Virus record (IMG/VR): IMGVR_UViG_3300008113_007076
Span: 1-40,620 of that record
Direction: 5' to 3' (one strand)
Length of the DNA stretch: 40,620 bases
From: a virus
Below, one piece after another: positions 5,966-35,853 of this stretch; within the stretch, counting starts at the first letter, position 1; each line of letters begins with the position of its first letter. The translations under genes and the position numbers were made by a program. The notes under the pieces were generated by a model. The model saw only the letters and a list, made by a program, of their open reading frames with translations, ran no database searches and was not told the DNA's origin.

Positions 5966-6050
5966 AACAGCGTACAATAGAGAACGATTTAGGAATCTGC
6001 TTGCCTGTGCAGATTTCAATCCATGCTATCGAGACCTGGAGCACCACTGA
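5958..6050 (+). CDS. Candidate 30-aa micro-ORF coupled to the first fibre gene
   Basis: An ATG at 5958 opens 30 codons ending in TGA, and that TGA overlaps the ATG of the collagen-fibre gene at 6050 by one base (TGATG). The product would be polar and charged, with two Cys and the segment [16 protein letters not shown]. It fills the whole intergenic gap. No strong ribosome-binding site precedes it, so it may be a leader ORF or chance. It also contains a 7-bp stem-loop (5994-6015). Confidence 0.35.
5994..6015 (+). other. Stem-loop within the leader of the fibre gene
   Basis: AATCTGC and GCAGATT form a 7-bp perfect stem around an 8-base loop. The structure lies 23 bases before the GGAG that serves the fibre start at 6050. 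There is no T-run, so it is more likely a leader structure than a terminator. Confidence 0.3.
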
Positions 6051-9195: not shown

Positions 9196-12110
9196 TTACT
9201 GGTCCTCAAGGTGAGGTAGGACCTACAGGTGTTACAGGTGCAACAGGTTCACAAGGTGACACTGGCCCTACTGGTCCTCAAGGTGAAATTGGTGTAACTG
9301 GTCCACAAGGTGAGCAAGGTGTAACTGGTCCACAAGGTGAAATTGGTGTTACTGGCCCTACTGGTCCTCAAGGTGAAATTGGTGTAACTGGTCCTCAAGG
9401 TGAAATTGGTGTAACTGGTCCTACTGGAGCTACTGGTGCGCAGGGTATTGCTGGTATTGGTGTAACCATTCTTGGTTCCTATCCAAATGAAGCAACTCTT
9501 ATTGCTGCAAACCCAACATACACAACCCCACCTGCCGACTGGGACAACTTTGCTATGTATGGACTATATGACTTAGTTACACATATAGGGCAAGTTTGGA
9601 TTCTTGCTGCCACTGGTGGTTGGACTGTTGGCGGTGCACCTGGTCTAGGTTACGGCTGGGCTGAATACACTCAACCAACATCAGGTGATGGTTATTTAGT
9701 AACTGGTGACCTCTATGTTTGGGATGCTGTAAACACTGAGTGGGACAACGTTGGAAATATTCAAGGTCCACAAGGTTCAACAGGACCAACTGGTTCTACT
9801 GGTGAGGCAGGACCAACTGGTCCAACTGGTTCACAAGGTGAACTTGGTAATTTTGCAATCTCTGATACAACACCACCTACAAATCCAAATAACGGTGATG
9901 CGTGGTTTAACAGCAACAACGGAAAAACTTACGTCTATTACGACGGTTATTGGATTGAGACTGGTGCAGCTCCAGTAGGACCAACTGGTCCTACTGGTCC
10001 TCAAGGTGCTGATTCAACTGTAACTGGACCTGCGGGTGCTACAGGTCCTACTGGTCCAACTGGTTACCGAGGAATTACAGGTCCTCAAGGACCAACAGGT
10101 CCAGAAGTAACTGGTCCTACTGGACCAACAGGTCCTACAGGTTCAACTGGACCTCAGGGTGCGATTGGTGCTACAGGTGCAACTGGTGCCCCATCAAATG
10201 TAACTGGACCAACAGGACCAACTGGTCCAACTGGTCCACAAGGAACAGCTTTAAGTCTTCTTGGAGAGGTTGCAAACGTAGGTGCTTTGCCTACAGGCGG
10301 AAACTCTCTCAATGATGGCTATGTAGTTGTTTCTAATGGAAATCTTTATGTGTGGGATGGTTTTGGTTGGGTTGATGCTGGACAGTTTGTAGGCCCTACA
10401 GGTCCTGACGGTCAATTTATCCCACAGGCAAACACTCCACCGTCAAATCCAGCAGCAGGTCAAGTTTGGTTTGATACAAACAATGGTGCCGTATTTGTTT
10501 ACTATGACGACTTCTGGGTAGAAGTTGGTAGTACCGAATTTGGTGGAGCTACAGGTCCAACTGGTGCACAGGGAACTATTGGAGCTACTGGTCCAACAGG
10601 TCCTCAGGGTGCTTCTCTAACATTTAGAGGAAACTTAAATACATCATCTCTTCTACCTACAGGCGGAAATCAGACTAACGATGCATACATCGTTACTGAT
10701 TCAGGAAACCTTTGGATTTGGAGTGGAATTGCTTGGACTGATAGAGGACGATTTGTAGGACCAACTGGTGCTACTGGTGCTACTGGACCAATTGTTACTG
10801 GTCCTACAGGTCCACAAGGTGTTGGTTCTCAAGCCAAGGGTTACTACAACACATACGCTGAGTTCATCGCTGGTGCTGGCGCAACTTCTGGTGAAGTTGG
10901 AGACTTCTACGTAATTTACGAAGAAGACACCATCTACATTTACACAGCAACTAATGGATGGATTGAAGCTGGTGCTTTGATTGGACCTACTGGTCCTACT
11001 GGTGCTAATTCAACAGTAGCTGGCCCTACTGGCCCAACAGGTGGAGCTGGTCCTACTGGAGCTACTGGTCCTCAGGGAACTTCAATCACCATGAAGTCAA
11101 GCGTTGCTAATGTTGGAGCTCTTCCAGCAACTGGTAACACAATTAATGATGGTCGTGCTGTTGATGCAGATGGTGACTTATACGTTTGGGATGGCGACAG
11201 CTGGAACAATGTTGGACAGATTGTTGGACCTACTGGTCCAACAGGTCCAGGAGTTACAGGCCCAACTGGCCCTGCATCTACTCAGCCAGGTCCTACTGGT
11301 CCTACTGGTCCATTTGGTCCTACAGGTCCAAAGGGTGGCGTTACATATCGATTTACTTCTACTGGAGACAATGGTTCATACTCAGTTGAAGGAATTGTTG
11401 GCAACAACCCAACACTAATTGCAGTACGTGGTGAGCGTTTATATATTGATGTAAGCCAAGTTTTAACTGCTAACCCACTTGCATTGAGACTAAGTCAGTT
11501 CTCTTCCTCAACAGTTCCAGGAACTGTTAATAACTCACCTACTCAAGGTAGGTCTGGTGCAAGTCCTGATACAACTATTATTTACGACGTTCCTTTGAAT
11601 GCACCAACATCTTTGGTTTATGTAGATGTTACAGACCCAAGCATCGGTGGAATTATTGAAGTTGTAGATAAGATTGGTCCTACTGGTCCACAAGGTCCAG
11701 TTGGTGCTACAGGTTCTCCTGTATCTGCAACATATGTTCCTGTTGCTGGTGGAGTGACTGGAACTCCATCTGTTTTTGGAGAATATGTAAAGTATGGTCA
11801 AGAAGTTGTATTCTCAGTTAGAATTGTGTACTCAAGCTCTACCTTTAGCGCAGCTCAGCTGACAGCGACACTTCCATTCCTACCTACTGGCGTTCAAGTA
11901 GTAACTGCTATTGGAGTATTGGACGTAGGCGGAGGTCAGAGTGGCGCTGTGTATGGAGTAAAGGCAGTATCTCAGGCTGAAGGTTCTGCAACTATGAAGA
12001 TTTGGTTTGAAGGAACAAACGGCCTGTTGACCGCGGTAACTGGAACAGCGCCAACTACACTTTCTACTAGCACAGTCCTTTACATAACAGGCTCTTACGT
12101 ATCGAACTAG
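7500..12110 (+). CDS. Collagen-like tail fibre protein, C-terminal part of the frame-disrupted gene
   Basis: The first GTG in this frame (7500) lies in a shadow of the upstream gene. Recognisable protein begins only near 7584 ([10 protein letters not shown]), inside the second fibre module, and no convincing ATG/GTG/TTG with a ribosome-binding site follows for hundreds of bases. This is best read as the continuation of the 6050 gene. The product alternates collagen tracts with globular modules: the remains of module copy 2, copy 3 (about 8020-8395), a divergent copy 4 (about 8836-9195), several LYVWDG modules (about 10252, 10615, 11086; longer variants near 9460 and 10822) and two YVYYDxYW modules (about 9850, 10417). 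The last about 250 residues are a collagen-free head: a beta-rich part (11338-11670), a short collagen bridge, then a compact domain ending ITGSYVSN. Expected role: adsorption fibre. Confidence 0.8.
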
Positions 12111-12131: not shown

Positions 12132-12833
12132 ATGCCAGCAATTGATTTTCCAAGTAACCCGACGTTGAATCAGGTTTACACAAATGGAGTTAACACCTAT
12201 TCCTGGGATGGTACTGCTTGGCGACTAGTTCGTACTAGTGCTCAAGGTCCTACAGGTCCTACAGGACCAGCAGGTGCAGACTCAACAGCTATTGGTGCAA
12301 CTGGACCTACAGGTGCGCAAGGACCGACTGGCCCAGAGGGACCAGCAGGAGCTCCTTCAACTACACCTGGTCCAATTGGGCCTACAGGTGCGACAGGTTC
12401 TTTTGCGATTGAACCTTGGACTTTATACACACCTGTTTGGTATGGCAGCACAACTAATCCACAAATCGGTAATGGAATTATTCAAGGTAGATATACCTAT
12501 GTAGGTGCAACAATTTTTGGAGAAATTAGAATTCAAGCTGGAACTTCTGGATTTAACAGAGGAAGTGGAACTTATTCTCTAAGCCTTCCTTCAAACGGTA
12601 TTGTCGAAAATTACCAGCCTGTAGGGCAAGTGGTTATGCGAGATGAAGGTCCAGGTATTACTTACTTTGGAACTGCAATTTTCAACAATAACTTTACAAA
12701 CAGAATTGAATTGTTTATGCACTCACAGTCTGCAACATTTGATGAAGGTGTAGCAGTTACTGAAAGCACTCCATTTTTGTTTAGCGGTAATGACAAGATT
12801 CTTGTCCAATTCACATATGAGTCAGTGGTATAG
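12132..12833 (+). CDS. Short collagen-like fibre with AIDFP anchor
   Basis: 233 aa, GAGGAG ribosome-binding site. It starts with AIDFPSNPTLNQVYTNG and TYSWDGTAWRLV, an about 35-residue anchor shared with the genes at 12848 and 15890. An about 50-residue collagen tract follows ([10 protein letters not shown]). The C-terminal about 140 residues form a beta-rich head starting WTLYTPVWYG and NPQIGNGIIQGRY, ending ILVFTYE-like (KILVQFTYE). I recognise this YTPxW...IGNGxxxGRY type as a common C-terminal domain in phage tail and receptor-binding proteins; no enzyme motif is visible. The shared anchor suggests this fibre attaches to the same site on the virion as its two siblings. Confidence 0.85.
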   Translation: MPAIDFPSNPTLNQVYTNGVNTYSWDGTAWRLVRTSAQGPTGPTGPAGADSTAIGATGPTGAQGPTGPEGPAGAPSTTPGPIGPTGATGSFAIEPWTLYTPVWYGSTTNPQIGNGIIQGRYTYVGATIFGEIRIQAGTSGFNRGSGTYSLSLPSNGIVENYQPVGQVVMRDEGPGITYFGTAIFNNNFTNRIELFMHSQSATFDEGVAVTESTPFLFSGNDKILVQFTYESVV

Positions 12834-12847
12834 GAGGCGAGTAGATA

Positions 12848-14737
12848 ATGGCAGCTATTGATTTTCCTAATTCTCCTACACCAAACGATTTATTTACTTC
12901 AGGTAGTCAAACTTGGCAGTGGGATGGAACTTCTTGGAACTTAGTTATTTCTCAAGTTGTTGGTCCTACTGGTCCACAAGGTCCTACTGGAGCAGCAAGT
13001 AATGTAACTGGTCCAACGGGTGCGACAGGCACTGTTCTCTTAGCATCAGACACTCCTCCAACTGGAGCTTCTGCAGGTGATGCTTGGTTAAACACTGCAA
13101 CTGGAAAAATTTATGTTTACTTTGATGACTACTGGGTTGAGTCTGCATCAAGTTTGAGCGGTAGCGAAGGTCCTACTGGACCAACAGGCGCTACTGGCCC
13201 TCAAAGTACAGTTCTAGGACCAACAGGTCCTACAGGTTCAACAGGACCTACAGGCCCACAAGGAAATACAGGCCCATCTGGTCCTCGAGGTTTTGACATA
13301 ACTGGGCCTACTGGCCCACAAGGTCCTACAGGTGCGCAAGGTGTTACTGGTCCTGAAGGTGAAAGAGGTCCTACAGGTCCTATTGGACCAATCGGAAATA
13401 CTGGTCCTCAAGGTGAAGAAGGTGTTACTGGTCCAACTGGTGCACAAGGTTTACAAGGTGCTACAGGTCCAACTGGTCCTCGCGGATTCGTTGGTCCTAC
13501 TGGCCCAGTAGGTGCTACTGGTCCGTCAGTGACTGGTGCAACAGGTGCAACAGGTGCTTCTGGCCCGACAGGTCCTGCAGGTGGACCTACTGGACCAACA
13601 GGCGCTACTGGTCCTACTGGTTCTGAAGGTCCAACTGGTGCTGCTGGTCTTCGTGGTGCTACAGGTGCTACAGGTGCAACTGGTGCTGCTTCTACTATTC
13701 CAGGACCGACTGGTCCTACAGGTCCATCTGTCACTGGCCCAACTGGTGCTGCTTCCAATATTCCAGGACCTACAGGTCCAACAGGAGCAACAGGTGCTGG
13801 ACCTACTGGCCCTACAGGTGCAGCGGGGGCAAGTTTTGCTGGAGTAACATCTACAAGCAACCTCTCTGTTTCTTTAGGATCTGAAAACTTTATTGTTAAT
13901 AAAGTTGATGCTTTTGCTGTCGGAACTCGAGCTCGCTTAGCTAGCTCTGCCTTTCCTCAGGATTATATGGAAGGCATCATCACCACAATTGTTGGCACAA
14001 CCATCACCATGTTTGTGGACAAGGTAAATGGTGAAGGTAATACATACGCAAGTTGGAATTTACTTCTCGGTGCTGGAGAAATTGGACCTACAGGTCCAAC
14101 AGGTCCACAAGGTGCATCTATTAAGTTCAAAGGTACTGTTCAATTTGACGTAAATCTTCCAGCAAGTGGAAATCAAATTAACGATGCTTATGTAGTTTCT
14201 GCAACAGGTGACCTTTGGGTTTGGAACGGAACTACTTGGCAAAATGTGGGACGTATTCAAGGTCCTACTGGAGGCACAGGACCTACTGGTTCACAAGGAC
14301 TAATTGGACCAACAGGTGCGACAGGTGCTGCTAGCACTGTAGCTGGCCCTACTGGCCCAACAGGAAGCACGGGGCCTACAGGCTCTACTGGTATTCAAGG
14401 ACCTACTGGCCCTGCATTCTTTAATCTAACTGGTCCTCAGTATCTATCTTCTGTAACTCTTACTGCCAATGACAATGCTTCTCTAGTTAAGCTAAACAGC
14501 TCTTCTCCTACTGTTGTAACTATTCCAGCAGATGGAACTAGCGGATATACATTCGACACTGGTTCTCAGATTGTTTTGACTCAACTGGGCAGCGCTGTTT
14601 TCAGTGTCACTGGTGCTGCAGGAGTTAGTGTTCTTAGTGAAGGAAGTCGCTATACAAGTAAGCAGCGTTATGCAGTCGCCTCTTTGATTAAGCTCGGGGC
14701 TAACTCATGGCTGCTAAGCGGAAACCTACAGGCTTAG
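12848..14737 (+). CDS. Long collagen-like fibre with AIDFP anchor
   Basis: 629 aa with an AGGAGG about ten bases upstream. The anchor is [17 protein letters not shown] plus [12 protein letters not shown]. It has a [10 protein letters not shown] module (about 13033-13155), a very long collagen tract, a small beta-rich interruption (13840-14080), one LWVWNGTTW module (about 14122-14256) and a second collagen tract. The C-terminal domain of about 100 residues (from [12 protein letters not shown]) ends in [20 protein letters not shown]. The same head type occurs at the end of the 31021 gene, where it reads VASAVKIGTNEWILVGDLA. This head is common at the tips of phage fibres and is likely a trimerisation or receptor-binding domain. 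Only one base separates its stop from the next ATG. Confidence 0.88.
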
Positions 14738-25365: not shown

Positions 25366-27759
25366 ATGCCAATTCAGCGACTTGGGATTCAGAACCCAAC
25401 GGGTAATACTGATACTGTTCTTGCTACATTTTCTGAAGCGCACCTTGTTTCAGTAATTATTGCCAATAAAGGTGTAGTAGCAGTACCAGCATGTAAAGTA
25501 AGTATTTGGATTGCACCAGCTAATGCTGTAATCGCTCTTAACTTTGCGTACATTGCTTTTAACTTAGATGTACCTGTTGGCTCTTCTTTTGAAACCTTTA
25601 GATTTGCTGTCAATCCAGGCGACACACTTTGGGTACGTTCTAGTACATCAAATGCTTCATTTAGCTGTGTAGGTATCGCTCAAGAGGATTCAGCTCTTCC
25701 TGAAAACCTCGTACAAACTTTTACTAATAAAGAAATTAGAGGTTTGTATAACACTGTTTATATTGACATTGGAACAACAGCAGAGCGTCGCTCTACTGCT
25801 GAAGTTGGTTATGTTCGATTTAATACAGAACTAAATGGTGGTGCAGGTGCTCTAGAGCAGAAGACTACAAACGGCTGGGAAATTGTAGGTACTGGTGTAA
25901 CTTCTGGACCAACTGGTCCAACTGGAGCCGCTGGCGCTACTGGACCAACTGGTCCATCTGGTGGCCCAACAGGTCCTACTGGTACTACAGGCCCAACTGG
26001 TGCTACTGGTCCTGTTGGTCTAGGTGGTAATGAAGGCCCAACTGGTGCTACTGGTCCACAGGGTCCAGCTGGTCCGCAAGCAACAAGCATTAATTTATTA
26101 GGTGGAGTAGCTAACTTTGCTGCACTTCCTTCCACTGGGAATACCGAAAATGATGCATATGTAACTCTTGATACACGAGATGTTTATTTGTGGACTGGAA
26201 CTTCTTGGTCAAATCTTGGTCCTATTTATGGAGCAACTGGACCAACTGGGTCTACAGGTCCAACAGGTGCCGCATCTACCGTGGTAGGACCTACTGGTGC
26301 TACTGGCCCAGCAGGTGCTGCTGGTCCTACAGGCCCTCAGGGAGACGCATCTATTATTCCAGGACCGACTGGTGCACAGGGTGTAACTGGTCCAACGGGA
26401 GCTACTGGACCGACTGGTGCCACTGGCTCAACTGGTCCAACTGGCTCACAAGGTATTACTGGACCTGCTGGAACAAATATTGTTATGAAGGGTAGTGTTG
26501 CTGATTTCGCTTCTCTACCATCATCAGGAAACACTTTATATGACGCTTATGTAACTCTGGATACAGGCGATACTTACATGTGGACTGGTTCTGCATGGGT
26601 CAATCTTGGAGCAATTGCTGGACCAGTAGGTCCTACAGGTGCGACAGGTGCGACAGGTTCTACTGGTGATACTGGACCAACTGGTCCATCTGGTGGCCCA
26701 ACAGGTCCTACTGGTGCAACTGGACCTGTCGGTCCTCAGGGACCAGGCAGCTCTAGTGTTGCAGTAGTTGAGACAGTAGATTCAACTGCATTTGTCGGTC
26801 TTTATGAAGATTTAACAGGTATTCAAGGTGGTAAAACTAATCAAGGAATCACCTTCGATGCTTCTACACAAAAACTTATTGTGTCTCAGATTGAGACCCC
26901 TACAATCCTTCCTCCTGCTTCAGGAGTTGGAACATTTACTGTAAGTTCTCCAACAACTTTAACTCTTGATGCAGAGAGTGAAGTTATTTCTAACGCACCA
27001 TTTAAACTTTTAAGTTCTACTGTTGCTGCTCTATCTAGCTTAACTGCTAGTGCTGGTGCAATTATTTACGTAAGTGATGCACCAATTGGATCCCAGTTGT
27101 ATTACTACAACGGAACTCAATGGGTTGAGATTGAAGGAACTGGTCAAGGACCTACTGGACCAACAGGTGCTACAGGTCCATCTGGTGGACCTACTGGACC
27201 AACAGGAGCAGTCGGTTCAACAGGACCTACAGGCCCTGCAGTAACAGGACCAACAGGAGCAGTCGGTTCAACAGGACCTACTGGACCTACAGGTTCACAA
27301 GGTGTTACTGGCCCTACAGGACCAGCAGGTACTACTAACTTTGGCTCTTTGAATGACATCACTTCTGCTTCAGTAACTGTTGATGAAATTTATGAACCAG
27401 CAATTACTATGCTACGAGTTGTTAATCAAGGTACAACTGCCTATAGATTTACAAGTCACTACGGATTGTCTAACAACCCAACAATTTATGCTATCTCTGG
27501 AACTACTATTGCTTTCAATCTTGCTAATGCTGGTCACCCATTTGCAATCCAAACAGCAGATGGAAACAACTTTAGTGAAGGTTTAGTCCACGTAGACACA
27601 AATGGTGTTGTTTCTACCGATTCAAATGCTCAAGGTAAGAGCTCAGGAACTCTTTATTGGAGAATCAGACAAAACCTTACTGGTGGATATAGATATCAAT
27701 GTTTGTCACACCCAGCGATGGGCAACACTATCGTAATTAAAGATATCTCGGCTATCTAA
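25366..27759 (+). CDS. Collagen-like fibre ending in a cupredoxin-like domain
   Basis: 797 aa. N-terminal about 105 residues ([18 protein letters not shown]...[17 protein letters not shown]) match the start of the 29415 protein and form a shared anchor. Three collagen tracts are separated by two [14 protein letters not shown] modules (about 26086-26226, 26482-26616) and a beta-rich interruption (26755-27140). The C-terminal about 140 residues are cupredoxin-like: [19 protein letters not shown], then [19 protein letters not shown] and [12 protein letters not shown]. Putative type-1 copper ligands are His724, Cys779, His782 and Met785. The Cys-x2-His-x2-Met spacing is the same as in amicyanin. 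Copper binding is inferred from the ligand pattern, and whether it is redox-active or structural is unknown. GGAGA lies about six bases before the ATG. Confidence 0.85.
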
Positions 27760-27771: not shown

Positions 27772-29364
27772 ATGAGTGAATACAAAGAGTACACAGTTAC
27801 TACAGAAAGTTTAGAGCTTACTGATGCTGTGTGGGATGCTCTGCTTACTGAGGGGAGTAATTTAACTACTATCCCTATTAGAGCCGTGGAAGTGGCAAAC
27901 GAGAGACCAGAAAACCCTCTAAACACTTCATACTGGCTAACAGATAGAGAAGCAGAGTTTCTAAGACAAGACCCTCGCGTTTCTGATGTACAAGACTTAA
28001 GCATTTTTAAACCACAAAAGTTAGCTTTTCAAACTGGAACTTTTGATAAAACTACAAATGAGACTGGTCCTAAAGTTAACTGGGGATTGTTAAGACATTC
28101 AAAGCCAGCAAATGTTTATGGAACCAGCCTTCTAGACCCAGGTGGAACCTATGACTATGTTTTAGATGGTTCCAACGTTGATGTTGTCATCATAGATAGT
28201 GGTATTCAAGCCAATCATCCAGAGTTTTTATACCCTGACGGTAGTGGTGCAAGCAGAGTAAACCTTGTAGATTGGTTTGCAGTTAGTGGTGTCTCTGGAA
28301 GTATGCCTTCTGGCTTTTATCAAGACTATGACGGTCATGGAACCCATGTGGCGGCGACTGTTGCTGGTCTTAATTTTGGATGGGCAAAAAATGCAAGAAT
28401 TTATTCTATAAAGCTTGAGGGCTTGAAAGCTCCAAGCGACCCTGGATCAGGTTTTGATGTTGACACCGCTTTTGATGTACTAATTGGTTGGCACAACAAC
28501 AAAACAAATGGAAGACCTACTGTTGTTGTCAACAGCTGGGGGTACGGGGTATTTCATAGAGCTGATTTAGAAGCTTTTTCATTTGGACTAGATGAGTCAG
28601 AAACTCTTTATGCTATAAATGGAGGAGCCTACCGAGGTGTTACTTGGGAAGGTACTGTATTAGACACTGCAAAAGGTCACACTGGTGCTCTTGTTGCCCC
28701 ATCTACTTATAGATACCCATTTAGAGTTGCTGCTGTTGATGCTGACATTAGAACTGGTGCTGAAGCTGGAATTTTATTTGTCAACGCTGCTGGAAATGAA
28801 TACATAAAAATTGATGTCCAAGGTGGAATTGATTACAACAATTACATCACTACTGACTTCGGTGCTTTTACATATCATAGAGGTGGTACACCAGGAGCTA
28901 GTATTACAGCACGAGAGAGTGTTTTCACTGTAGGTTCTATTGACCATCAAACAGTCACTGGAACTTCTACAGAGAGAAAGTCAAACTTTAGTAACTCTGG
29001 TCCAGGAGTGACAGTTTATGCCGCTGGGTCAAGAATTATGAGTGCAATGAGCCAAGTTAATGACGATAACTCTAACTACCCATACTTTTTAAATGGGTCT
29101 TTTAAACAACAACTTTTGTCTGGCACCTCCATGGCAGCTCCTCAAATTGCAGGGATAGCGGCTCTTGTATACCAAATGCACCCAGATTGGACCCCAAGAC
29201 AGGTCATTAACTTCATCAAAGATAAGTCATTTTCTAGTCTTTTTAAGACAGACCTTACAAACGACTATACGAATGTCCATAGCGTACATGGCGGGGCTAA
29301 CCTGATAGCCTACGTACCTATGGCTTCACAAAGAAAATTCTCCTTCCAAAGAGCCACGGTATAG
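27772..29364 (+). CDS. Subtilisin-like serine protease (S8) in the fibre locus
   Basis: 530 aa. All catalytic elements of subtilases are present: VDVVIIDSGIQ (Asp142), DGHGTHVAA (His189), NAAGNE (oxyanion Asn342) and SGTSMAAPQIAG (Ser453). The first about 80 residues contain YWLTDREAEFLRQDPRVSDV, similar to inhibitor-I9 propeptides that keep subtilases inactive until cleaved. There is no signal peptide, so it probably acts inside the producing cell or on the virion rather than by Sec export. An AGGA precedes the ATG by eight bases. Gene order (between two fibres with the same anchor type) suggests a virion-borne protease or a maturation protease for fibre proteins. The protease family is certain; the substrate is unknown. 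Confidence 0.92.
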   Translation: MSEYKEYTVTTESLELTDAVWDALLTEGSNLTTIPIRAVEVANERPENPLNTSYWLTDREAEFLRQDPRVSDVQDLSIFKPQKLAFQTGTFDKTTNETGPKVNWGLLRHSKPANVYGTSLLDPGGTYDYVLDGSNVDVVIIDSGIQANHPEFLYPDGSGASRVNLVDWFAVSGVSGSMPSGFYQDYDGHGTHVAATVAGLNFGWAKNARIYSIKLEGLKAPSDPGSGFDVDTAFDVLIGWHNNKTNGRPTVVVNSWGYGVFHRADLEAFSFGLDESETLYAINGGAYRGVTWEGTVLDTAKGHTGALVAPSTYRYPFRVAAVDADIRTGAEAGILFVNAAGNEYIKIDVQGGIDYNNYITTDFGAFTYHRGGTPGASITARESVFTVGSIDHQTVTGTSTERKSNFSNSGPGVTVYAAGSRIMSAMSQVNDDNSNYPYFLNGSFKQQLLSGTSMAAPQIAGIAALVYQMHPDWTPRQVINFIKDKSFSSLFKTDLTNDYTNVHSVHGGANLIAYVPMASQRKFSFQRATV

Positions 29365-29375
29365 GATTTTAAAGG

Positions 29376-29381: not shown

Positions 29382-29414
29382 TATGAGAAAAGCTGACGAA
29401 GTAAGGAGCGACAA

Positions 29415-31001
29415 ATGGCAGCAAAACGCTTAGGTCTTGCTACTCCCAATGCAAACATAGCTACTCTGCTTGCTACCAACGACACAGTTGGTGTTGCTTC
29501 TGTAATTGTTTCAAACAGAGCTAATATTCAGAGTCTTGTTACTATCTATGTTGAACCAGCCGAAGCCCTCGGTGTAGAGGCAACTCGTTCCTACATTGTC
29601 GACAATTTGGCTGTTTCTGTGGGCCAATCTTTTGAGACATTTAGATTTGCTTTAAATGCTGGAGACCAAATTTGGGTTAAGTCCAGCACATCTCTTGCTA
29701 ATTTTTCTGCAACTCTTGTTTATGACCAAGCTGGTAGAGCAAATATAACTTATTCTTCAAATCAACCAGGATTTCCTTCTGTAGGAGATATTTGGATTGA
29801 TTCTGATACTCAGGAAGTTAATTTTTATACGGGTTCAGGATTTAATACTGTAGCAAGTATTGCTCCTTCAGGTCCTACAGGTCCTGCTGGCCCATCTGGT
29901 CCTACTGGCCCATCGGGACCTACTGGTCCTCAGGGGTCTAGCGTTCGTATTCTTGGAACATATGCAACTCTTAATCTTCTTCAAGCTGATAACCCAATTG
30001 GTGCAATTGGAGATGCTTATGTTGTTGCTTCAGAATTTGTTTACGCATGGTCAGACCTTAACCAAGAGTGGGCGCTTGTTGGTCCAATTGGTGTAACTGG
30101 CCCAGCTGGTCCTACTGGTGCGACTGGTCCTCAGGGTATTGGTGGAGCAGATGGTGCAACAGGTGCTACTGGTCCTGCTGGTGAACCAGGAGGCCCTACT
30201 GGTGCTGCTGGTCCAACAGGTCCGACAGGTTCACTTGGACCTACTGGTCCAACTGGTCCTGAGGGACCCACTGGTCCAACAGGTTCTATTGGTGAGACAG
30301 GTATAGTTTCTGGTGCAGTTCCTCCAGCCGATGTATCAAGTATCTGGGTGGATACAACTGTAGATTCAGCAATTCTTATTCACGCTGCAACGCACGCTGT
30401 CGGTGGCGGTGATGAGTTAACTCTTGCTACAAGTCAAATTACAGGTTTGAATACAAGACTTGGTGATTTAGACGTTCTAACTAATGGTGAAGGCAGCATT
30501 GATAGAAAAGCTCCACTCACTGGTGTTGCATATGGAGCATCAGGAAACCTTATTCTAACTTATCGTCGAGCAATCAAAACAGAAACTATTACAAAACTTT
30601 CTATGGCTTGCGGTACTGCTGCTGGTGCAACCCCAACACTAGTGAAATATGGAATCTATTCAGTAAATGACTCTACTGGAGATTTAACTTTGGTAGCGTC
30701 TACTGCAAACGACACATCAATTTTTTCAACCGCTAACAGCGCTTTTGAAGTTAACTTAACTTCATCATTTACCAAGACAGCTGGTAATTTGTATGCATAT
30801 GCAGTTGTACTGGTGAGCACACAAACGCTTCCTACAGTTATTGGTCACGCACATGTTGCATCTGCTGGTGTTAACGCAATCTTGGCTTTACCTCCAAGAA
30901 TTACAGGTCTAGTTGCTGCTCAGACAGATTTACCAAGTTCTATTTCTGCAGGTTCTATAACAGCTTCTAACCGTGCACTGTGGACGCACGCCCTACCTTA
31001 A
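29415..31001 (+). CDS. Collagen-like fibre protein sharing the RLG anchor
   Basis: 528 aa, with AAGGAG (29402-29407) upstream. The N-terminal about 110 residues (RLGLATPNANIATLLAT...[20 protein letters not shown]) parallel the 25366 protein. A short module (QPGFPSVGDIWIDSDTQEV), a collagen tract, a degenerate YAWSDLNQEW module and a second collagen tract follow. Then comes a short segment HAVGGGDELTLATSQITGLN that looks like a fibre-shaft or coiled-coil transition. The C-terminal about 170 residues are a beta-sandwich-like head (LTKLSMACGTAAG-like, KYGIYSVNDSTGDLTLVAST, LYAYAVVLVST), a head type I recognise from actinophage minor tail proteins. Likely receptor-binding fibre. Confidence 0.85.
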   Translation: MAAKRLGLATPNANIATLLATNDTVGVASVIVSNRANIQSLVTIYVEPAEALGVEATRSYIVDNLAVSVGQSFETFRFALNAGDQIWVKSSTSLANFSATLVYDQAGRANITYSSNQPGFPSVGDIWIDSDTQEVNFYTGSGFNTVASIAPSGPTGPAGPSGPTGPSGPTGPQGSSVRILGTYATLNLLQADNPIGAIGDAYVVASEFVYAWSDLNQEWALVGPIGVTGPAGPTGATGPQGIGGADGATGATGPAGEPGGPTGAAGPTGPTGSLGPTGPTGPEGPTGPTGSIGETGIVSGAVPPADVSSIWVDTTVDSAILIHAATHAVGGGDELTLATSQITGLNTRLGDLDVLTNGEGSIDRKAPLTGVAYGASGNLILTYRRAIKTETITKLSMACGTAAGATPTLVKYGIYSVNDSTGDLTLVASTANDTSIFSTANSAFEVNLTSSFTKTAGNLYAYAVVLVSTQTLPTVIGHAHVASAGVNAILALPPRITGLVAAQTDLPSSISAGSITASNRALWTHALP

Positions 31002-31020
31002 GAGTCAATAGGAGAATAAA

Positions 31021-31482
31021 ATGCCAGTCTTAAAAAAATATGATCTTAACGATCAAATTTGGAAGCCTATTGCTGTTGGAGCCACTGGACCTACAGGACC
31101 TACTGGCTTTGTTGGGCCTACTGGACCAACTGGAGCTCAAGGTATAACTGGTCCTCAGGGAGATTGGTCAACTGCTCAACCTATCGTTACAAAAAGCGCT
31201 TCTTTTATTTTAGAGCTAACTAATGCTGGAAAAATTTTAAAATGTGATAGCGGCGCTTCTATGGTCGCAACAATACCTGTTGAGGCATCAGTTGCTTTTC
31301 AAGACGGTCAGAAAATCGATTTTATTCAGTATGGAGCAGGTCAGCTCACCATTGCTGGAGCAGTCGGTGTGACAGTGAGAGCAACTCCAACTAATAAATT
31401 GAGAGCTCCTTACTCTGTAGCTTCTGCGGTAAAAATTGGAACTAACGAGTGGATTCTCGTCGGAGACTTGGCGCTAGTTTAA
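31021..31482 (+). CDS. Small collagen-like fibre tip protein
   Basis: 153 aa, AGGAG six bases before the ATG. It begins MPVLKKYDLNDQIWKPIAVG, a short anchor, then only about 30 residues of collagen triplets, followed by an about 100-residue head. The head (FQDGQKIDFIQYGAGQLTIA, GVTVRATPTNKLRAPYSVAS, KIGTNEWILVGDLA) is homologous by eye to the C-terminus of the 12848 protein. It is possibly a short fibre or a donor of head domains to longer fibres. Its stop is one base before the next ATG. Confidence 0.8.
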   Translation: MPVLKKYDLNDQIWKPIAVGATGPTGPTGFVGPTGPTGAQGITGPQGDWSTAQPIVTKSASFILELTNAGKILKCDSGASMVATIPVEASVAFQDGQKIDFIQYGAGQLTIAGAVGVTVRATPTNKLRAPYSVASAVKIGTNEWILVGDLALV

Positions 31483-31483
31483 A

Positions 31484-32113
31484 ATGCCAATAAATGTCGG
31501 GTCTATTGCTGGTGCAGGTTATTTAAAAAATCCTGCCGAAGCTTTTAATTTAGATTACAGGGTTAATTATATTAAAAACCCGACTTTTGAAGTAGATATC
31601 TCTGACTGGACACCTTTTGCTGGGACTACATTAGTAAGAGATACAAACGAATTTAACACAGGTTCGGCTTGTCTTAAAGTTACAAACACCTCTGGAGGAG
31701 GTGTTCAAACAGTCGAAAGAATTGCATTTATTGACACCGCAGAAGAGTGGACTGTCAGCGCTTATGTGAAACTTGACACTCTAAATGACAATGCGACCTA
31801 CTATCTTCGTCATCTTCAATACACTACAAGCACTGCTTCAGCTGCTATATCTAGTGGAAATATTGGAATTCAAGCTCTAACTAGTGCTGACGGCTGGGTT
31901 AGATTGAGCGGGTCTTTTACTAGAACTTCTGGAGCTAACTTTTTTGCATTAAGAATTGTGACCACTTCAGCATCTAATACAGACGTATTTTTTGTTGACT
32001 CTGTTATGGCAGAAAGGTCTTCTACTTTGGGGACCTATTTTGATGGCTCACTAGACGGATTTTGGACTGGAACCCCCCACTCAAGCTATAGCGGTGCTAC
32101 CCCATACGTGTAA
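31484..32113 (+). CDS. Carbohydrate-binding-module-like virion protein
   Basis: 209 aa, ATG one base after the previous stop, with no ribosome-binding site of its own at normal spacing, so translation is probably coupled. It has a beta-sandwich pattern of the CBM4/9 or galactose-binding type: NYIKNPTFEVDISDWTPFAG, SACLKVTN, EWTVSAYVKLD, DGWVRLSGSFTRTSG and VFFVDSVMAE, then the closing tail YFDGSLDGFWTGTPHSS. This N-F-x-x-x-(V/D)xxW...ADGxxxxxP architecture is widespread in phage tail proteins that bind glycans. There is no enzyme motif. It ends the fibre operon, just before the transferase genes. Confidence 0.75.
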   Translation: MPINVGSIAGAGYLKNPAEAFNLDYRVNYIKNPTFEVDISDWTPFAGTTLVRDTNEFNTGSACLKVTNTSGGGVQTVERIAFIDTAEEWTVSAYVKLDTLNDNATYYLRHLQYTTSTASAAISSGNIGIQALTSADGWVRLSGSFTRTSGANFFALRIVTTSASNTDVFFVDSVMAERSSTLGTYFDGSLDGFWTGTPHSSYSGATPYV

Positions 32114-32145: not shown

Positions 32146-32721
32146 ATGACATATCCCAACTGGTTTGAAAATGATGGTCAAGAGAACTTTAAAAACCATC
32201 TACTAGAGTTTTTAAATAAACCTGCTCGAATGTTGCAAATAGGTGCATACACAGGGGATGCTTCTGTGTGGCTTTGGGACAACATACTACGTCACAACCC
32301 AGACTCGGTGTTGATTGATGTGGACACGTGGGAGGGTTCTGACGAACCTGTTCATAATCAGATGAACTGGGAGTCTGTAGAAAGTTTTTATGATGTAAAA
32401 ACTTTAGTAGGGCAGCAGAGCAAAAAAATTATTAAAGTCAAGTCTACAAGTGATTGGTTCTTTAAAAATAATCTAGAGAAGTATGACTTTGTGTATGTTG
32501 ATGGAGACCATACTTCCTATGGTGTAATAAAGGATGCAATAAGCGCTTACGAGTGTTTAAATGTAAATGGAATAATAGCTTTTGATGACTATCAATGGTC
32601 CGCTGGGCTTGGCTATTTAAACGAGCCAAAATTGGCAATAGACGCGTTTAGTACAATTTATTCAGACCGACTCGAACTTTTAGTTGACGGGTATCAGCGT
32701 TGGTATAGAAAAATAAGATAG
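32146..32721 (+). CDS. Class I SAM methyltransferase-like protein (Methyltransf_24 type)
   Basis: 191 aa, AAAGGAC upstream. It has motif I-like RMLQIGAYTGDASVWL, an acidic second strand (VLIDVDTWEGSDE), then YDFVYVDGDHTSYGVIKDAI and NVNGIIAFDDYQW, the sequence pattern of the small Methyltransf_24 family often linked to glycan biosynthesis. The protein lacks an extra substrate domain. It is followed ten bases later by the glycosyltransferase gene, so the two probably act in one pathway, such as O-methylation of a sugar. The substrate is unknown. Confidence 0.78.
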   Translation: MTYPNWFENDGQENFKNHLLEFLNKPARMLQIGAYTGDASVWLWDNILRHNPDSVLIDVDTWEGSDEPVHNQMNWESVESFYDVKTLVGQQSKKIIKVKSTSDWFFKNNLEKYDFVYVDGDHTSYGVIKDAISAYECLNVNGIIAFDDYQWSAGLGYLNEPKLAIDAFSTIYSDRLELLVDGYQRWYRKIR

Positions 32722-32730
32722 GGTGCTCAC

Positions 32731-33807
32731 ATGAAAGTAGCTATATACACAATCGCATTAAATGAACGACAGTTTGTTGATAAATGGTATGAAGCTTCAA
32801 AAGAAGCTGATTACTTGTTAATAGCCGATACAGGCTCCACAGACGGCACCGTTGAGCGTGCAAAAGAGCTTGGAATTAATGTAGTTGATGTTCGAGTATC
32901 CCCTTGGCGTTTTGATGACGCTAGAAACGCAGCAATGGCAGCTTTACCAATCGATATTGATATGTGTATCTCCCTTGATATGGATGAAGTAATTACTCCT
33001 AACTGGCGTCCACTGCTTGAAGCTGCATGGCAACGTGGAGTAACACGTCCTCGCTATAAGCACATTTGGTCTTGGAATGATGATGGAACTCCAGGTTTGG
33101 AATTCAGCTACGACCACATCCACACTCGGAAAAATTACCGCTGGCGTCATCCAGTGCATGAGTGTCTATATGTTTACGGACGCGAAGAAGTGCAAGAATG
33201 GATTGAAGGTTTAGAAACTCACCATCACCCAGACCCAACAAAATCGCGCTCTCAGTATCTACCCTTGCTGGCTCTCTCTGTTCAAGAAGACCCATACAAC
33301 GACCGCAATGCGTTCTACTATGGTCGAGAACTTTATTTCTATGGTCGCTACCAAGAAGCAGCAGTAGAGCTAAAGCGACACCTTGAACTCCCAACAGCTC
33401 GATGGGCACCAGAGCGTGCTGCATCAATGCGTTTTATTGGTAAGAGCCTTCCTGCAGAGGCAGAGATTTGGTTCCGTAAGGCTATTGATCAAGCTCCAGG
33501 ACGCCGTGAACCTTTTGTTGATTTAGCAGAGTTGTACTATCAACGCAAGGACTGGCAGAAGTGTTATGAGGCAGCTAAAGATGCCATCGCTATTGCTGAA
33601 AAACCTTTAGAGTATTTGTGCGAAGCAAAAGCATGGGGAGCAGCCCCGCATGATTTTGCTGCAATTTCTGCTTACTATTTAGGTAAGTTTGAAGAAGCAG
33701 TAGAGCATGCAAAGAACGCTTTTAGCATCGAGCCAGATAATGAAAGACTTGCAGAAAACCTTAAATTCTGTCTTAGCGCTATAAATCCAGAAGAAAAGAG
33801 TGTCTAG
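32731..33807 (+). CDS. Family 2 glycosyltransferase with TPR-like C-terminus
   Basis: 358 aa. The GT-A fold N-terminus has TIALNERQFVDKWYEA, the nucleotide-sugar site ADTGSTDGTVERAKELG (about residues 32-48) and the DxD motif SLDMDEVI (Asp83, Asp85). The middle holds HxxHP/HHHPDPTKSR-like segments. The C-terminal half (from about residue 190) consists of helical repeats of TPR type (YYGRELYFYGRYQEAAVELK, AISAYYLGKFEEAVEHAKNA). GT2-plus-TPR enzymes often glycosylate proteins, the TPR part holding the target. The stop TAG overlaps the GTG of the halogenase gene by one base, so the two are translationally coupled. A virion protein or host surface could be the acceptor. Confidence 0.85.
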   Translation: MKVAIYTIALNERQFVDKWYEASKEADYLLIADTGSTDGTVERAKELGINVVDVRVSPWRFDDARNAAMAALPIDIDMCISLDMDEVITPNWRPLLEAAWQRGVTRPRYKHIWSWNDDGTPGLEFSYDHIHTRKNYRWRHPVHECLYVYGREEVQEWIEGLETHHHPDPTKSRSQYLPLLALSVQEDPYNDRNAFYYGRELYFYGRYQEAAVELKRHLELPTARWAPERAASMRFIGKSLPAEAEIWFRKAIDQAPGRREPFVDLAELYYQRKDWQKCYEAAKDAIAIAEKPLEYLCEAKAWGAAPHDFAAISAYYLGKFEEAVEHAKNAFSIEPDNERLAENLKFCLSAINPEEKSV

Positions 33808-35312
33808 TGAAATTTGTAGTCTGCGGTGGTGGAACGGCTGGATGGCTTACCGCTCTAACCATTCACTCTAGTAACCCAAAGTTTCATGAAGTAGTGGTTA
33901 TAGAATCACAAAAAATAGGAATTATTGGAGCTGGAGAGGCTACAAGCGGTCTTCTCTATGATGTATTAGATGGCTCTACCTTATTTGGAAATAATCAAAC
34001 AATAAATCCAAACAAAGTGGCTTTTGATTTTGCAGAGTTTGCTAAGAAAGTCGATGCTGTACCTAAGTATGCACTTAAGCACATCAACTGGGCTAAAGAC
34101 AAAGGCTCTTATTGGGCACCAATTAACGGCTCAGAAACTTCTAAGCGCTCTCCTGACCATCTGTTTAATTATGTTGTAGCAGAGTTTGGTCCTGAAAAAG
34201 CTTATCTATCTTCTGTATTAGGGCAGTCTTATGATCTAAATAAACTCCCACCTTCTGGAGGTTATGGGTTCCAGTTTGATGCCCACAAAGTAGCTAAGTT
34301 TTTACGAGAGTATATAACTACAACCACAAAAACTACTCATATAGATTCAATTATCAAGGATGTTACTGTCACTAGCGATGGTCTAGTTGAAAGCGTGACT
34401 ATCGAAGATGGTCAAGTTATTGAAGGAGATTTCTTCATTGACGCTACTGGATTTGTTAGATTATTGGCAAACAAAGTTGGTATTGGGTGGACAGACTACA
34501 AAAACCAACTTCTTGTAGACAGAGCTATGCCTTTTATAGTTCCATACAAAGAAGAAGAAAAAGTACAACCTGTAACAGTTGCAGAAGCTCTCTCTTCTGG
34601 TTGGATGTGGCGAACTCCTACAGGAGGCCGCCGAGGTTGTGGGTATGTCTATAGCAGTGCGTTTATTTCTGAAGATGAAGCTCAAAAAGAAGCTGAAAAA
34701 ATTATGGGGCATCCTATCGAGCCAATTAAGCATATTAAATATGAATCAGGCCGAGTGGACCAATTTTGGAAAGGCAATGTTTTAGTAGTTGGCCTTGCAA
34801 GCTCTTTTATTGAACCTTTAGAGGCAACCAGTATTCATGCAACTATTATGCAAATCTTTAGTTTCTGTCAAGAATATCTTTCAGATACAAAAGAGAAAAC
34901 TTTAAACCCTGCCTCAATACAAAAATACAATGCTAAAACTGAAAAAATGTATGAATACTATAAAGACTTTACAGTGTTCCACTATCAAGGTGGAAGAGAA
35001 GATTCTGAGTTCTGGAAAACTATTAAGTTCGACAAGATTACCTCTCCTGCTGTAGAAAACTACATCGAGAGGTCAAAGAGCAGAATCCCAAGTGTTCTTC
35101 ATTTTATGGATTTCTGGGGCGTTGATTCTCTGTGGAAGTGGACATTAGCTGGTCTTGGATATGTATCCAGAGAGCAAGCGATGGATGAGTTAGTTCAGTT
35201 TGACCAATTTGAATACGCTCAAAACCACTACAGAGCTTTTAGAGAAGACATGCGAAAAGCACATGAAAATAGTAGACCTTTTGAGATGAATCCGAAAGAC
35301 TTTATTATTTAA
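33807..35312 (+). CDS. Flavin-dependent tryptophan-halogenase-like enzyme
   Basis: 501 aa, close to the usual length of flavin-dependent halogenases. The FAD-binding GGGTAGWLTA opens the protein (residues 7-16), then VIESQKIGIIGAGEAT. PKYALKHINW (Lys87/Lys91) corresponds to the lysine region that holds and activates hypohalous acid. SGWMWRTP (Trp266, Trp268) is the WxWxIP halogenase signature with Thr in place of Ile. GLASSFIEPLEATSIH (about 330-345) is the conserved acidic segment. An Fd or NADH flavin reductase partner is not visible. The GTG start is coupled to the GT2 stop. Viral members of this family are known (a cyanophage enzyme that iodinates). Substrate not predictable; free Trp, a peptide or a phenol are all possible. 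The 3' end overlaps the reverse WhiB gene by eight bases. Confidence 0.88.
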   Translation: MKFVVCGGGTAGWLTALTIHSSNPKFHEVVVIESQKIGIIGAGEATSGLLYDVLDGSTLFGNNQTINPNKVAFDFAEFAKKVDAVPKYALKHINWAKDKGSYWAPINGSETSKRSPDHLFNYVVAEFGPEKAYLSSVLGQSYDLNKLPPSGGYGFQFDAHKVAKFLREYITTTTKTTHIDSIIKDVTVTSDGLVESVTIEDGQVIEGDFFIDATGFVRLLANKVGIGWTDYKNQLLVDRAMPFIVPYKEEEKVQPVTVAEALSSGWMWRTPTGGRRGCGYVYSSAFISEDEAQKEAEKIMGHPIEPIKHIKYESGRVDQFWKGNVLVVGLASSFIEPLEATSIHATIMQIFSFCQEYLSDTKEKTLNPASIQKYNAKTEKMYEYYKDFTVFHYQGGREDSEFWKTIKFDKITSPAVENYIERSKSRIPSVLHFMDFWGVDSLWKWTLAGLGYVSREQAMDELVQFDQFEYAQNHYRAFREDMRKAHENSRPFEMNPKDFII

Positions 35313-35853
35313 GTTGTTGCTTCTTAAGTTTTTTAGCTAAACGCTTTTTCTCCAGCTTTAGAGCTTTTTTCTCTCGAATGCGTGCTCTTTTTTCAGATTT
35401 ATCAATACGCTCTTGTTTATAAGCTTCGATAGCATTTACGCTAGTTCGACTGCGCCAAGAAAAGCCACATACCGTACATGTGACTATCTTGGCGACAGTC
35501 CACCTACCACCACCAGGAATTTCCTGAGAACTTGTTTCTAGCTTTGACGGACGAGCTGAACAATAAGGACAGTGCGGGTATCTACGGCGTTTTATCTCTT
35601 CACCCTTGTAAGAGACAGAGAGTGCTCGACGTATCTCGCTCTCGTCTTTGCCACCCCACGTACCCCAAATCTGTCGGTGCTCTAAAGCCCACTGCAAACA
35701 CTGAGCCCGTACAGGGCATTCGTAGCAGAGGTTTTTTGCATCGTACTTTTGCTTAGGGTCTTTAGAAAAAAACCAGTCTTTGAAATGAGTATTTTGAGGC
35801 TGAGCACAAAGGGCTTCAGACTGCCATTCTATGTTGTTAGCTGGTTTCCACAC
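35305..35853 (-). CDS. WhiB-family regulator with an extra C-terminal zinc ribbon
   Basis: 182 aa, much longer than usual WhiB proteins. The WhiB part has the four iron-sulfur cysteines Cys16, Cys43, Cys46 and Cys52 (C-x2-C-x5-C), followed by GTWGG (64-68). A second domain has two CxxC knuckles (HCPYCS, Cys95/98; TCTVCG, Cys126/129), forming a probable zinc ribbon. The last 40 residues are strongly Lys/Arg-rich and could bind DNA. The start is GTG with no Shine-Dalgarno, consistent with a near-leaderless transcript from the promoter at 35868-35895. It is convergent with the halogenase gene. WhiB proteins in phages are thought to redirect host sigma factor use; here the added domains may change DNA targets. 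Confidence 0.9.
   Translation of the reverse strand: MWKPANNIEWQSEALCAQPQNTHFKDWFFSKDPKQKYDAKNLCYECPVRAQCLQWALEHRQIWGTWGGKDESEIRRALSVSYKGEEIKRRRYPHCPYCSARPSKLETSSQEIPGGGRWTVAKIVTCTVCGFSWRSRTSVNAIEAYKQERIDKSEKRARIREKKALKLEKKRLAKKLKKQQLK

Follow-up and report, generated by a model that had tools for sequence, protein, structure and literature searches.

Three enzyme genes follow the fibre operon of the virus record IMGVR_UViG_3300008113_007076 in the order methyltransferase (MT), glycosyltransferase (GT) and halogenase (HAL), and the question is what these enzymes modify. The window, that is the whole stretch of 40,620 nucleotides that was analyzed, also encodes a series of collagen-like proteins (Table 1). 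The analysis makes it probable that the three genes constitute a virion-decoration cassette, where GT would glycosylate the threonine residues in the Y-position of the Gly-X-Y triplets of the fibres, with MT and HAL as tailoring enzymes.

Table 1. Genes of the window that are discussed in the text
Feature	Position	Strand	Remarks
Collagen-like protein	6023..7582	+	75 triplets, 44 Y-Thr
Large collagen-like protein	7500..12110	+	169 triplets, 93 Y-Thr
Collagen-like protein	12132..12833	+	15 triplets, 7 Y-Thr; Pfam Collagen below cut-off
Collagen-like fibre protein	12848..14737	+	83 triplets, 45 Y-Thr
Collagen-like fibre protein	25366..27759	+	76 triplets, 50 Y-Thr
Subtilisin-like protease (Peptidase_S8)	27772..29364	+	Pfam E 1e-29
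Collagen-like fibre protein	29415..31001	+	32 triplets, 16 Y-Thr
Short collagen-like fibre protein	31021..31482	+	10 triplets, 6 Y-Thr; matches PHROG tail and virion proteins
CBM_4_9 protein, final gene of fibre operon	31484..32113	+	209 aa; Pfam E 3e-10
MT, small SAM methyltransferase (Methyltransf_24)	32146..32721	+	191 aa; proposed glycan or fibre methylation
GT, GT2 (GT-A fold) + TPR glycosyltransferase	32731..33807	+	358 aa; proposed collagen-Thr O-glycosyltransferase
HAL, flavin-dependent halogenase (Trp_halogenase family)	33807..35312	+	501 aa, GTG start; proposed fibre- or glycan-linked aromatic target
WhiB-like regulator, convergent to cassette	35305..35853	-	Pfam Whib E 3.5e-17

The initial annotation described three enzyme genes running in the same direction behind the fibre operon, and all three open reading frames were recovered, as was the one-base overlap claimed, which lies between GT and HAL (TAG/GTG). 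The gaps given as 10 bases are in fact nine bases between MT and GT and 32 bases between the fibre operon and the start of MT. The cassette does follow the operon, but the final gene of the latter encodes a CBM_4_9 protein and not a collagen. The gene for a subtilisin-like protease sits between collagen genes of the operon. A scan for promoters and terminators gave nothing exceeding shuffled sequences. Since the window contains a gene for a WhiB-like regulator, the host is probably an actinobacterium.

Counted as runs of at least four G-X-Y, the open reading frames of the window contain 481 triplets. Thr occupies the Y-position in 271 of these and the X-position in seven, while Pro is found at X in 227 and at Y in four, and the tracts are indeed rich in Gly-x-Thr as had been claimed. 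According to PMC8968730, however, bacterial collagens often have Thr at Y in any case (31.6% over all bacteria, 48.3% in Gram-positives), which counts against a GT-specific reading. Among viral collagen contigs from a GPx-anchored scan, a Y-Thr fraction of at least 0.4, a cut picked after the values were known, was found in 7/7 contigs with GT versus 12/47 without. At a cut of 0.5 the figures are 5/7 versus 12/47 (p 0.026), and a rank test gives p 0.0013. The scan yielded at least 120 stretches, of which 80 were analyzed and 54 had at least 15 triplets. GT was in the locus of three of the 54, the contig of one (L391) was already known to carry GT, and the remaining 50 were searched at contig level, giving three strong matches and five weak partial ones that were scored as GT-negative. 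One of the latter (L354) has a Y-Thr fraction of 0.70. In L460, which is outside the 80 analyzed and was left out of the count, GT lies between two GxT collagens.

GT matches Glycos_transf_2 (E 1.3e-5) and several TPR models in Pfam, and phrog_13126 (E 3e-117), annotated as a beta-1,4-glycosyltransferase in PHROG. The AF2 model (pLDDT 93.9) displays strands up to residue 165 and helical repeats from 173 to 351, and its top Foldseek matches are the peptide glycosyltransferases SunS/ThuS (E 1.8e-15, TM 0.64 by query length). The residues D83-x-D85 and D33-T-G-S36 are invariant in 24/24 rows of the alignment. With a GT-A domain in front of TPR repeats in a single chain of 358 aa, GT has the architecture of the SgtA type. 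The genomic context is of this type as well, since the gene is found beside a GPT-rich collagen in the window, in 39/40 viral relatives, in L311 and L313, and in a Peribacillus plasmid. UDP-galactofuranose was considered as donor and rejected, as a UDP-galactopyranose mutase was found only in the phage DSL-LC01 (1/16 records).

The count of 39/40 distinct viral GT relatives with a collagen-like gene in the locus, within 5 kb in 38, comes from the GT scans alone and requires at least 5 kb upstream, so that 34/74 GT proteins with a shorter upstream region were left out; pooling the HAL, GT and MT scans gave 42/43. When the search was made with HAL, GT was found upstream in 20 of 21 loci and collagen in 18, the 21st contig starting inside HAL, and the grouping of GT, HAL and collagen is therefore not due to chance. 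The order MT-(small ORFs)-GT-HAL is kept down to approximately 55% HAL identity. DSL-LC01, whose GT relative was found by tblastn, has the layout collagen-HAL-GT-WhiB. No annotated collagen gene was found within 8 kb of the remote GTs of the phages PaBG and Lu11 (32-36% identity, tblastn). Further glycosyltransferase families cluster with GT and collagens, namely PF11397 (L082-type phages and L312), a Fringe-like family (L080) and Glyco_transf_25 (Mesorhizobium L343). The PF11397 cluster of L312 includes a sub-threshold match to a 2OG-Fe oxygenase.

The same association is seen in bacteria, where 36/44 loci with GT homologues contain a collagen ORF of at least eight triplets within up to 8 kb on either side; some of the eight loci without are short contigs. 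The median Y-Thr fraction is 0.96 in the 33 loci with at least 15 triplets, with X varying between Ala, Pro, Ser, Asp and Glu. In three genomes the only place matching PF01391 is found near GT, at about 1 kb in L309 (4.2 Mb), about 5 kb in L312 (4.6 Mb) and 12 bases, ORF to ORF, in L311 (1.1 Mb). The Peribacillus plasmid has an annotated collagen-like gene (Y-Thr 0.96) immediately upstream of GT. Among 392 genomes from the phylum of a Bacilli MAG, PF01391 was found in 12/12 GT carriers versus 74/380 others (Fisher 6.6e-9; 3.0e-8 without the seed), and in six of the 12 carriers no collagen lay within approximately 2 kb of GT among the matches listed. The collagen adjoining GT in G354 has a Y-Thr fraction of just 0.39, a search with PF01391 found nothing in the L314 genome, and the L346 genome has its collagen on a different contig. 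In the order of the L343 (Mesorhizobium) genome GT carriers are too few for a co-occurrence estimate (3/249). The co-occurrence counts are not independent, since the GTs of the phages are related by descent and Mesorhizobium makes up most of the genome set.

It could be argued that gene order alone accounts passively for this neighbourhood, the cassette and the fibre operon having only late expression in common. Most viral loci share one gene order and the WhiB context, as would be expected if they came from a single phage lineage, and in L075 and L076 MT-GT is inverted and lies on the opposite strand to the fibres. However, GT also adjoins collagen in phages with another gene order (L080, L294, L295, L302) and in unrelated bacteria, and GT and collagen co-occur genome-wide, leaving this explanation very improbable. 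Another proposal would be that GT, together with MT, modifies glycans on the host cell surface or phage DNA, leading to superinfection exclusion or nuclease protection. For cultured phages of Nanopelagicales, such targets of their glycosyltransferases have been put forward (PMC10202952), and the name of the PHROG family of GT agrees with them. On the other hand, the fold of GT is nearest to that of peptide glycosyltransferases, and members of the family also sit next to GxT collagens in Bacilli, alphaproteobacteria and actinobacterial MAGs, to which no role peculiar to phages can apply; host glycans or DNA thus seem improbable as targets. Because of the collagen neighbours, the co-occurrence, the SunS/ThuS-like fold and the SgtA analogue, GT most likely O-glycosylates the Y-position Thr of the collagen-like fibres. 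The glycosylation of GxT fibres suggested in the initial annotation thus has strong support, both from gene neighbourhood and co-occurrence, which hold for phages and for several groups of bacteria, and from the in-vitro-proven analogue SgtA/BclA3.

When it comes to MT (Methyltransf_24, E 9.5e-13), near and distant relatives differ. The MT scan, which took in 80/90 relatives, showed GT in the locus of 26/26 distinct near relatives and collagen in 24/26; the pooled scans gave 50/50 with GT, a figure that is partly so by construction. L310, a contig binned as an actinobacterium, carries an MT of 52% identity between two GTs and behind a GxT collagen, the order on one strand being collagen, a 173-aa ORF, sulfotransferase, GT, MT, GT. 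In contrast, neither GT nor collagen was found in any of 26 loci of a distant MT subfamily. Methylation of the fibres, as first proposed, is therefore moderately supported by the near relatives and L310, while the distant subfamily speaks against it.

HAL matches Trp_halogenase (E 5e-84, Pfam) and phrog_2928 (E 1e-90), and its AF2 model (pLDDT 91.8) matches Thal, RebH, PrnA and PyrH in Foldseek. The halogenases next to GT fall into two distinct lineages that occupy opposite sides of it, and 27/30 are located within -43 to +12 bases of GT. The FAD-binding GxGxxG residues G7, G9 and G12 as well as K87 are present in 30/30, and E339 in 29/30, DSL-LC01 having Asp; K87 and E339 are the catalytic Lys and Glu of this family. 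The exact WxWxIP motif is found in 12/30 and WxWxxP in 28/30, with WMWRTP in the HAL of the window. Motifs for free tryptophan were scored as described for the Trp-FDH groups A and B (PMC8269204), without a known Trp halogenase as positive control. Neither Trp1 (AT[IVF][PS]) nor strict Trp4 of type A or B was found in any of the 30, whereas loose Trp2 occurred in 10/30, including the HAL of the window, and loose Trp4B in 8/30, in both cases with uncertain register. In 128 distant viral halogenases Trp1 was found in one and Trp4 in none. NCBIfam gave sub-threshold matches only, one of them to QhpG (E 1.8e-5, 23.9 bits versus a cut-off of 240), which according to PMC7876137 is a flavoenzyme modifying peptidyl Trp; membership of that family was rejected and QhpG serves as an analogy only. 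Enrichment of Trp or Tyr was dropped as a signature of HAL targets, as fibres of HAL-carrying phages are not richer in either residue than those of phages without HAL, and Trp is slightly lower (medians 1.01% versus 1.30%, n 22 and 20, p 0.013). Halogenases of cyanophages and pelagiphages were likewise rejected as supporting cases; four records with 7 kb on either side had no annotated collagen gene. Their neighbours include 2OG-Fe oxygenases or phytanoyl-CoA dioxygenases, tRNAs, terminase and sheath genes. Since two halogenase lineages adjoin GT, have the catalytic Lys and have neither Trp1 nor Trp4, a fibre- or glycan-linked role of these enzymes is suggested.

MT and HAL might instead be separate cargo in a variable slot that ends the late operon, with GT alone acting on the fibres; they could for instance produce a halogenated, methylated small molecule inhibiting competitors or host signalling. 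Distant halogenase loci have collagen in 5/71 and GT in 0/71, which together with the distant MT subfamily agrees with this alternative, as do the lack of HAL in 20/43 GT loci and of Trp/Tyr enrichment in the fibres. Halogenase clusters of jumbo cyanophages have also been interpreted as secondary-metabolite or capsule-decoration systems (PMC7824862). Against it stand the two halogenase lineages flush with GT and the missing Trp1 and strict Trp4 motifs, although these are nearly missing in the distant viral halogenases too. Furthermore, no other metabolite-biosynthesis gene was recognized by Pfam in the cassette of the window. Separate cargo is thus rather unlikely, yet has to be reckoned with. 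The co-occurrence with GxT collagen expected for all three enzymes was found for GT but not for distant MT and HAL relatives; enzymes without such fibres, which the initial annotation had named as evidence against its reading, are common among the latter two and hardly seen for GT (1/40 viral, 8/44 bacterial). Halogenation of the fibres is accordingly no more than suggested, with the two lineages beside GT in favour of it and the 66/71 distant loci without collagen against.

If the three genes do form a virion-decoration cassette, the GT-A domain would be catalytic and the TPR arm would hold the extended collagen chain. The donor would be a nucleotide sugar of the host, probably UDP-GlcNAc if SgtA is a guide, and its hexose or N-acetylhexosamine would be placed on the hydroxyl group of Thr at Y of Gly-X-Thr, either before the trimers assemble or while they do so. 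The sugar is probably methylated by MT, and the target of HAL is probably an aromatic group that belongs either to the fibre or to something attached to the fibre. A bolder proposal, which can only be made tentatively, is that phages use halogenation to modify the virions they build. A locus for collagen-fibre glycosylation would have acquired flavin halogenases lacking the free-tryptophan motifs, on two occasions in the simplest case, and these enzymes would attach chlorine or bromine to peptidyl Trp/Tyr or to an aromatic group carried by the O-glycosylated fibres. Together with its relatives in bacteria, this locus would represent a swappable island of post-translational tailoring. Such an island, with methyl-, halo- and sulfo-transfer and second glycosyltransferases, would diversify the chemistry of surface collagens much like antigenic variation does elsewhere.

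Many tailed phages have collagen-like fibres. Hydroxyproline, which stabilizes animal collagen, is mostly missing from phage and bacterial collagens (compare PMC8968730), and the likely gain of glycosylation would be a stable, hydrated and protease-resistant triple helix without it, as well as a changeable outer surface. GT is tied to Gly-X-Thr collagens both in phages and in bacteria that their record titles assign to several phyla, which leads to the testable idea that Y-Thr is the glycosylation site. This tie also offers a concrete substrate for phage glycosyltransferases of a class for which DNA or cell walls are the usual guess (PMC10202952). The role of cyanophage halogenases has stayed speculative (PMC2984593), and the setting described here lets a substrate be predicted for phage halogenases. 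A literature search, with subscription journals mostly outside it, retrieved no paper proposing glycosylation of phage collagen or halogenation of fibres.

SunS and ThuS (PDB 7msn, 7msk) are the closest structures to the GT model, yet share 14-15% identity with it, and they are S-glycosyltransferases acting on Cys of bacteriocin peptides. The collagen hydroxylase-glucosyltransferase L230 of Mimivirus is a virus enzyme that modifies a virus-encoded collagen, but it acts on hydroxylysine and has an architecture different from that of GT. HAL shares fold, FAD motif, Lys and Glu with RebH, PrnA, Thal, PyrH and VirX1 (6qgm), and differs in its lack of the free-tryptophan motifs Trp1 and strict Trp4. 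Glycosylation of virion proteins by phage glycosyltransferases has been proposed for mycobacteriophages, there with a capsid protein as target and not collagen fibres (PMC11256854). In vitro, SgtA of Clostridioides difficile attaches beta-O-GlcNAc to the Thr residues of peptides with GPT repeats, and its gene is found immediately upstream of bclA3, encoding the collagen-like BclA3 (PMC7157674). That system belongs to the spore coat and not to a virion, and the available part of PMC7157674 describes no halogenase or methyltransferase. Compared by description, however, SgtA and GT agree in length (358 aa), in the order of the GT-A and TPR domains and in having a GPT-rich collagen-like neighbour.

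In the virus record (40,620 bases), the fibre operon is followed by genes for a methyltransferase (MT), a glycosyltransferase (GT) and a flavin-dependent halogenase (HAL). The operon and MT are 32 bases apart, MT and GT nine bases apart, and GT and HAL overlap by one base. Threonine is found at Y in 271 of the 481 G-X-Y triplets of the window, and at X in seven. The proposal is that GT O-glycosylates the Y-threonines, and that MT and HAL possibly act on the same fibres or their glycans. The subtilisin-like protease of the operon is kept in many relatives and could be involved in fibre maturation. The two WhiB-like genes, together with the kinship with DSL-LC01, an Actinomycetia phage assembled from a lake metagenome whose host is predicted to be actinobacterial in the available text (PMC10611076), point to an actinobacterium as the probable host. 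DSL-LC01 also encodes a UDP-galactopyranose mutase and a second GT across its WhiB gene; the mutase was not seen in the records of 15 other relatives.

Positions of features in the window and in related loci
Feature	Record	Position	Strand	Remark
Prim-Pol/D5-type primase-helicase	window	1126-3747	-	directly after terminase gene; surroundings mostly plus-strand
Fibre operon	window	25366-32113		collagen-like proteins, subtilisin-like protease, CBM_4_9 protein
Subtilisin-like protease	window	27772-29364		between collagen fibre genes
MT	window	32146-32721	+	
GT	window	32731-33807	+	
HAL	window	33807-35312	+	
WhiB-like gene	window	35305-35853	-	domain search
WhiB-like gene	window	36587-36865	-	domain search
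PF11397 GlcNAc-transferase	L312	9120-10907	-	C-terminal 2OG-Fe oxygenase match, sub-threshold
~220-250 aa family	L038	616-1359		same slot beside GT
~220-250 aa family	L066	9221-9964		same slot beside GT
~220-250 aa family	L057	11077-11787		same slot beside GT
~220-250 aa family	L082	7236-7904		same slot beside GT

Two scans of viral contigs (at least 300 aa, >55% identity) gave at least 74 distinct GT proteins among the matches listed. For 40 of these proteins the contig reaches 5 kb or more upstream; the locus of 39 of them contains a collagen ORF, the exception being L304, and in 38 this ORF lies within 5 kb. When the HAL and MT scans are pooled in as well, collagen is found in 42 of 43 viral GT loci. 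The association survives changes in gene order: GT is flanked by two collagen genes in L080, precedes collagen in L295, lies behind it without MT in L294, and in L075 shares with MT the strand that does not encode the fibres. As to the small family sharing a slot beside GT, profile searches gave no Pfam match for the L038 and L066 members and no NCBIfam match for the latter.

The bacterial genome scan gave 44 GT loci (38-54% identity), mostly from Mesorhizobium and Bradyrhizobium, but also from Dongia, other Rhodospirillales, Bacilli, Binataceae and Actinomycetota. Of these loci, 36 have a collagen ORF with eight or more triplets, in some cases several kb from GT; in most of these collagens Y is almost always Thr and X is variable, with a lower value (0.53) in L348. 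In L311, a Bacilli MAG, a GPT/GAT collagen stops 12 bases 5' of GT, L313 is similar, and on a Peribacillus plasmid the gene upstream of GT is annotated as collagen-like. Whole-genome PF01391 searches located the sole collagen place close to GT in three genomes; counterexamples are L314, whose genome has no match, and L346, where the match is on a different contig from GT. Among 392 genomes of the phylum of L311, PF01391 (E 0.001) was found in 12/12 GT carriers versus 74/380 other genomes (Fisher 6.6e-9; 3.0e-8 with the seed genome removed). Among the matches listed, collagen lies within ~2 kb of GT in six of the carriers and is elsewhere by contig, or not found, in four; the distance is ~21 kb in G316 and far in G128. 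Proteins near GT in the Mesorhizobium and Bradyrhizobium loci (L316-L344) contain as many as 219 GAT/GDT/GST triplets. Just upstream of GT there is often a gene encoding 1.2-1.4 thousand residues (in L334 with Pfam GT2, TPR and FkbM methyltransferase), and nine loci have a GT25-like ORF, confirmed by Pfam in L343 only.

The median Y-Thr is 0.61 in GT-containing phage loci (n=20, dereplicated at 85% GT identity), 0.96 in such genome loci (n=33), and 0.26 in control viral collagens found with a Y-blind pattern (n=51, among the matches listed). By contig, again among the matches listed, Y-Thr of at least 0.4 was found in 7/7 with GT versus 12/47 without (p 2.8e-4), and of at least 0.5 in 5/7 versus 12/47 (p 0.026); these statistics treat sequences as independent and ignore shared ancestry. 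In the literature, as far as the source was available, the mean is given as 31.6% across all bacteria and as 48.3% in Gram-positives (PMC8968730).

For MT (METHYLTRANSFERASE), the locus includes GT in all 26 distinct near relatives (at least 55% identity) and collagen in 24 of them; the 26 distinct distant relatives of the same scan have neither. On one strand of L310, a contig binned as Actinomycetota, the gene for a collagen of 173 triplets (Y-Thr 0.84) is followed by an ORF of 173 aa and then by a sulfotransferase, GT, MT (52%) and GT. This order suggests that GT, MT and collagen form a cellular module too; L310 may be chromosomal or part of a prophage. A distant methyltransferase subfamily (L116-L156, 41-52%) is found on other viral contigs without collagen or GT, mostly as a lone plus-strand gene amid minus-strand genes and often near a WhiB-like gene.

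GT is present in 20 of the 21 loci of the HAL scan, and the last contig starts inside HAL. On the strand of GT, at a distance of no more than 1.5 kb, there are 30 distinct halogenases: 21 follow GT and nine precede it, and in 27 the spacing is -43 to +12 bases; the catalytic Lys is found in all 30 and the Glu in 29. In a tree of 77 representatives, the 12 GT-adjacent ones form two groups, one per side of GT, and a single grouping was rejected (AU p 3.0e-5; a quick tree, with DSL-LC01 a long branch). The simplest reading would be two recruitments to the GT locus, and the tree is compatible with gain as well as with loss. In each of four viral contigs (L171, L183, L205, L213), a region of up to 17 kb contains three or four divergent ORFs for halogenases, a few of them incomplete, and among them many ORFs of ~200 aa; six of eight neighbours tested match 2OG-Fe(II) oxygenase models, four above the Pfam cut-off, and L171 and L183 have a chaperonin gene. 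This is a tailoring island far larger than the window cassette.

HAL has the Trp halogenase fold. None of the 30 GT-adjacent enzymes contains the free-Trp motifs Trp1 and Trp4, which are taken here from the available part of PMC8269204; since almost every one of 128 halogenases from distant viral loci also lacks them, this is nothing peculiar to the GT locus. Fibres as the target are argued against by the lack of collagen in 66 of 71 loci of distant halogenases, and by the lack of a Trp/Tyr excess in the fibres of phages with HAL. Halogenation of the virion is judged less likely than not. Other roles have been proposed in the literature, here as far as the sources were available: the DSL-LC01 halogenase was classed as an auxiliary metabolic gene, with mention of secondary metabolites, in a main text where the word collagen was not found (PMC10611076), and halogenase clusters of jumbo cyanophages were interpreted as metabolite or capsule systems (PMC7824862). 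Nanopelagicales phage isolates carry a GT, WhiB and collagen-like proteins, and for the GT a role in DNA protection or cell-wall change was proposed (PMC10202952). That the entire cassette acts on the fibres is somewhat favoured; the bolder question lies with HAL.

The AlphaFold2 model of GT (pLDDT 93.9) consists of a GT-A domain and TPR helices; Foldseek ranked SunS and ThuS at the top, and further down the list gave OGT and GmaR, matched by their TPR domains. Related GTs have as neighbours PF11397 GlcNAc-transferases (L082, E 3.5e-27; L312, E 8.9e-72), a Fringe-like transferase (L080) and a Glyco_transf_25 protein (L343, E 4.9e-20); PF11397 and GT25 are families that include Skp1 and collagen glycosyltransferases. 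The L312 protein, encoded near the sole PF01391 place of a proteobacterial genome, matches a 2OG-Fe oxygenase at 24.6 bits, below the Pfam cut-off of 27, and might be a bacterial enzyme that both hydroxylates and glycosylates collagen. GT is probably a collagen-Thr glycosyltransferase, and its sugar donor would, as a default guess, be host UDP-GlcNAc. According to the available text, SgtA of C. difficile matches GT in length and in the order of its domains, transfers beta-O-GlcNAc onto Thr, and also Ser, of synthetic GPT-repeat peptides, and is encoded immediately upstream of bclA3 (PMC7157674). SgtA-like collagen glycosylation is already known; what would be new is its occurrence in phages.
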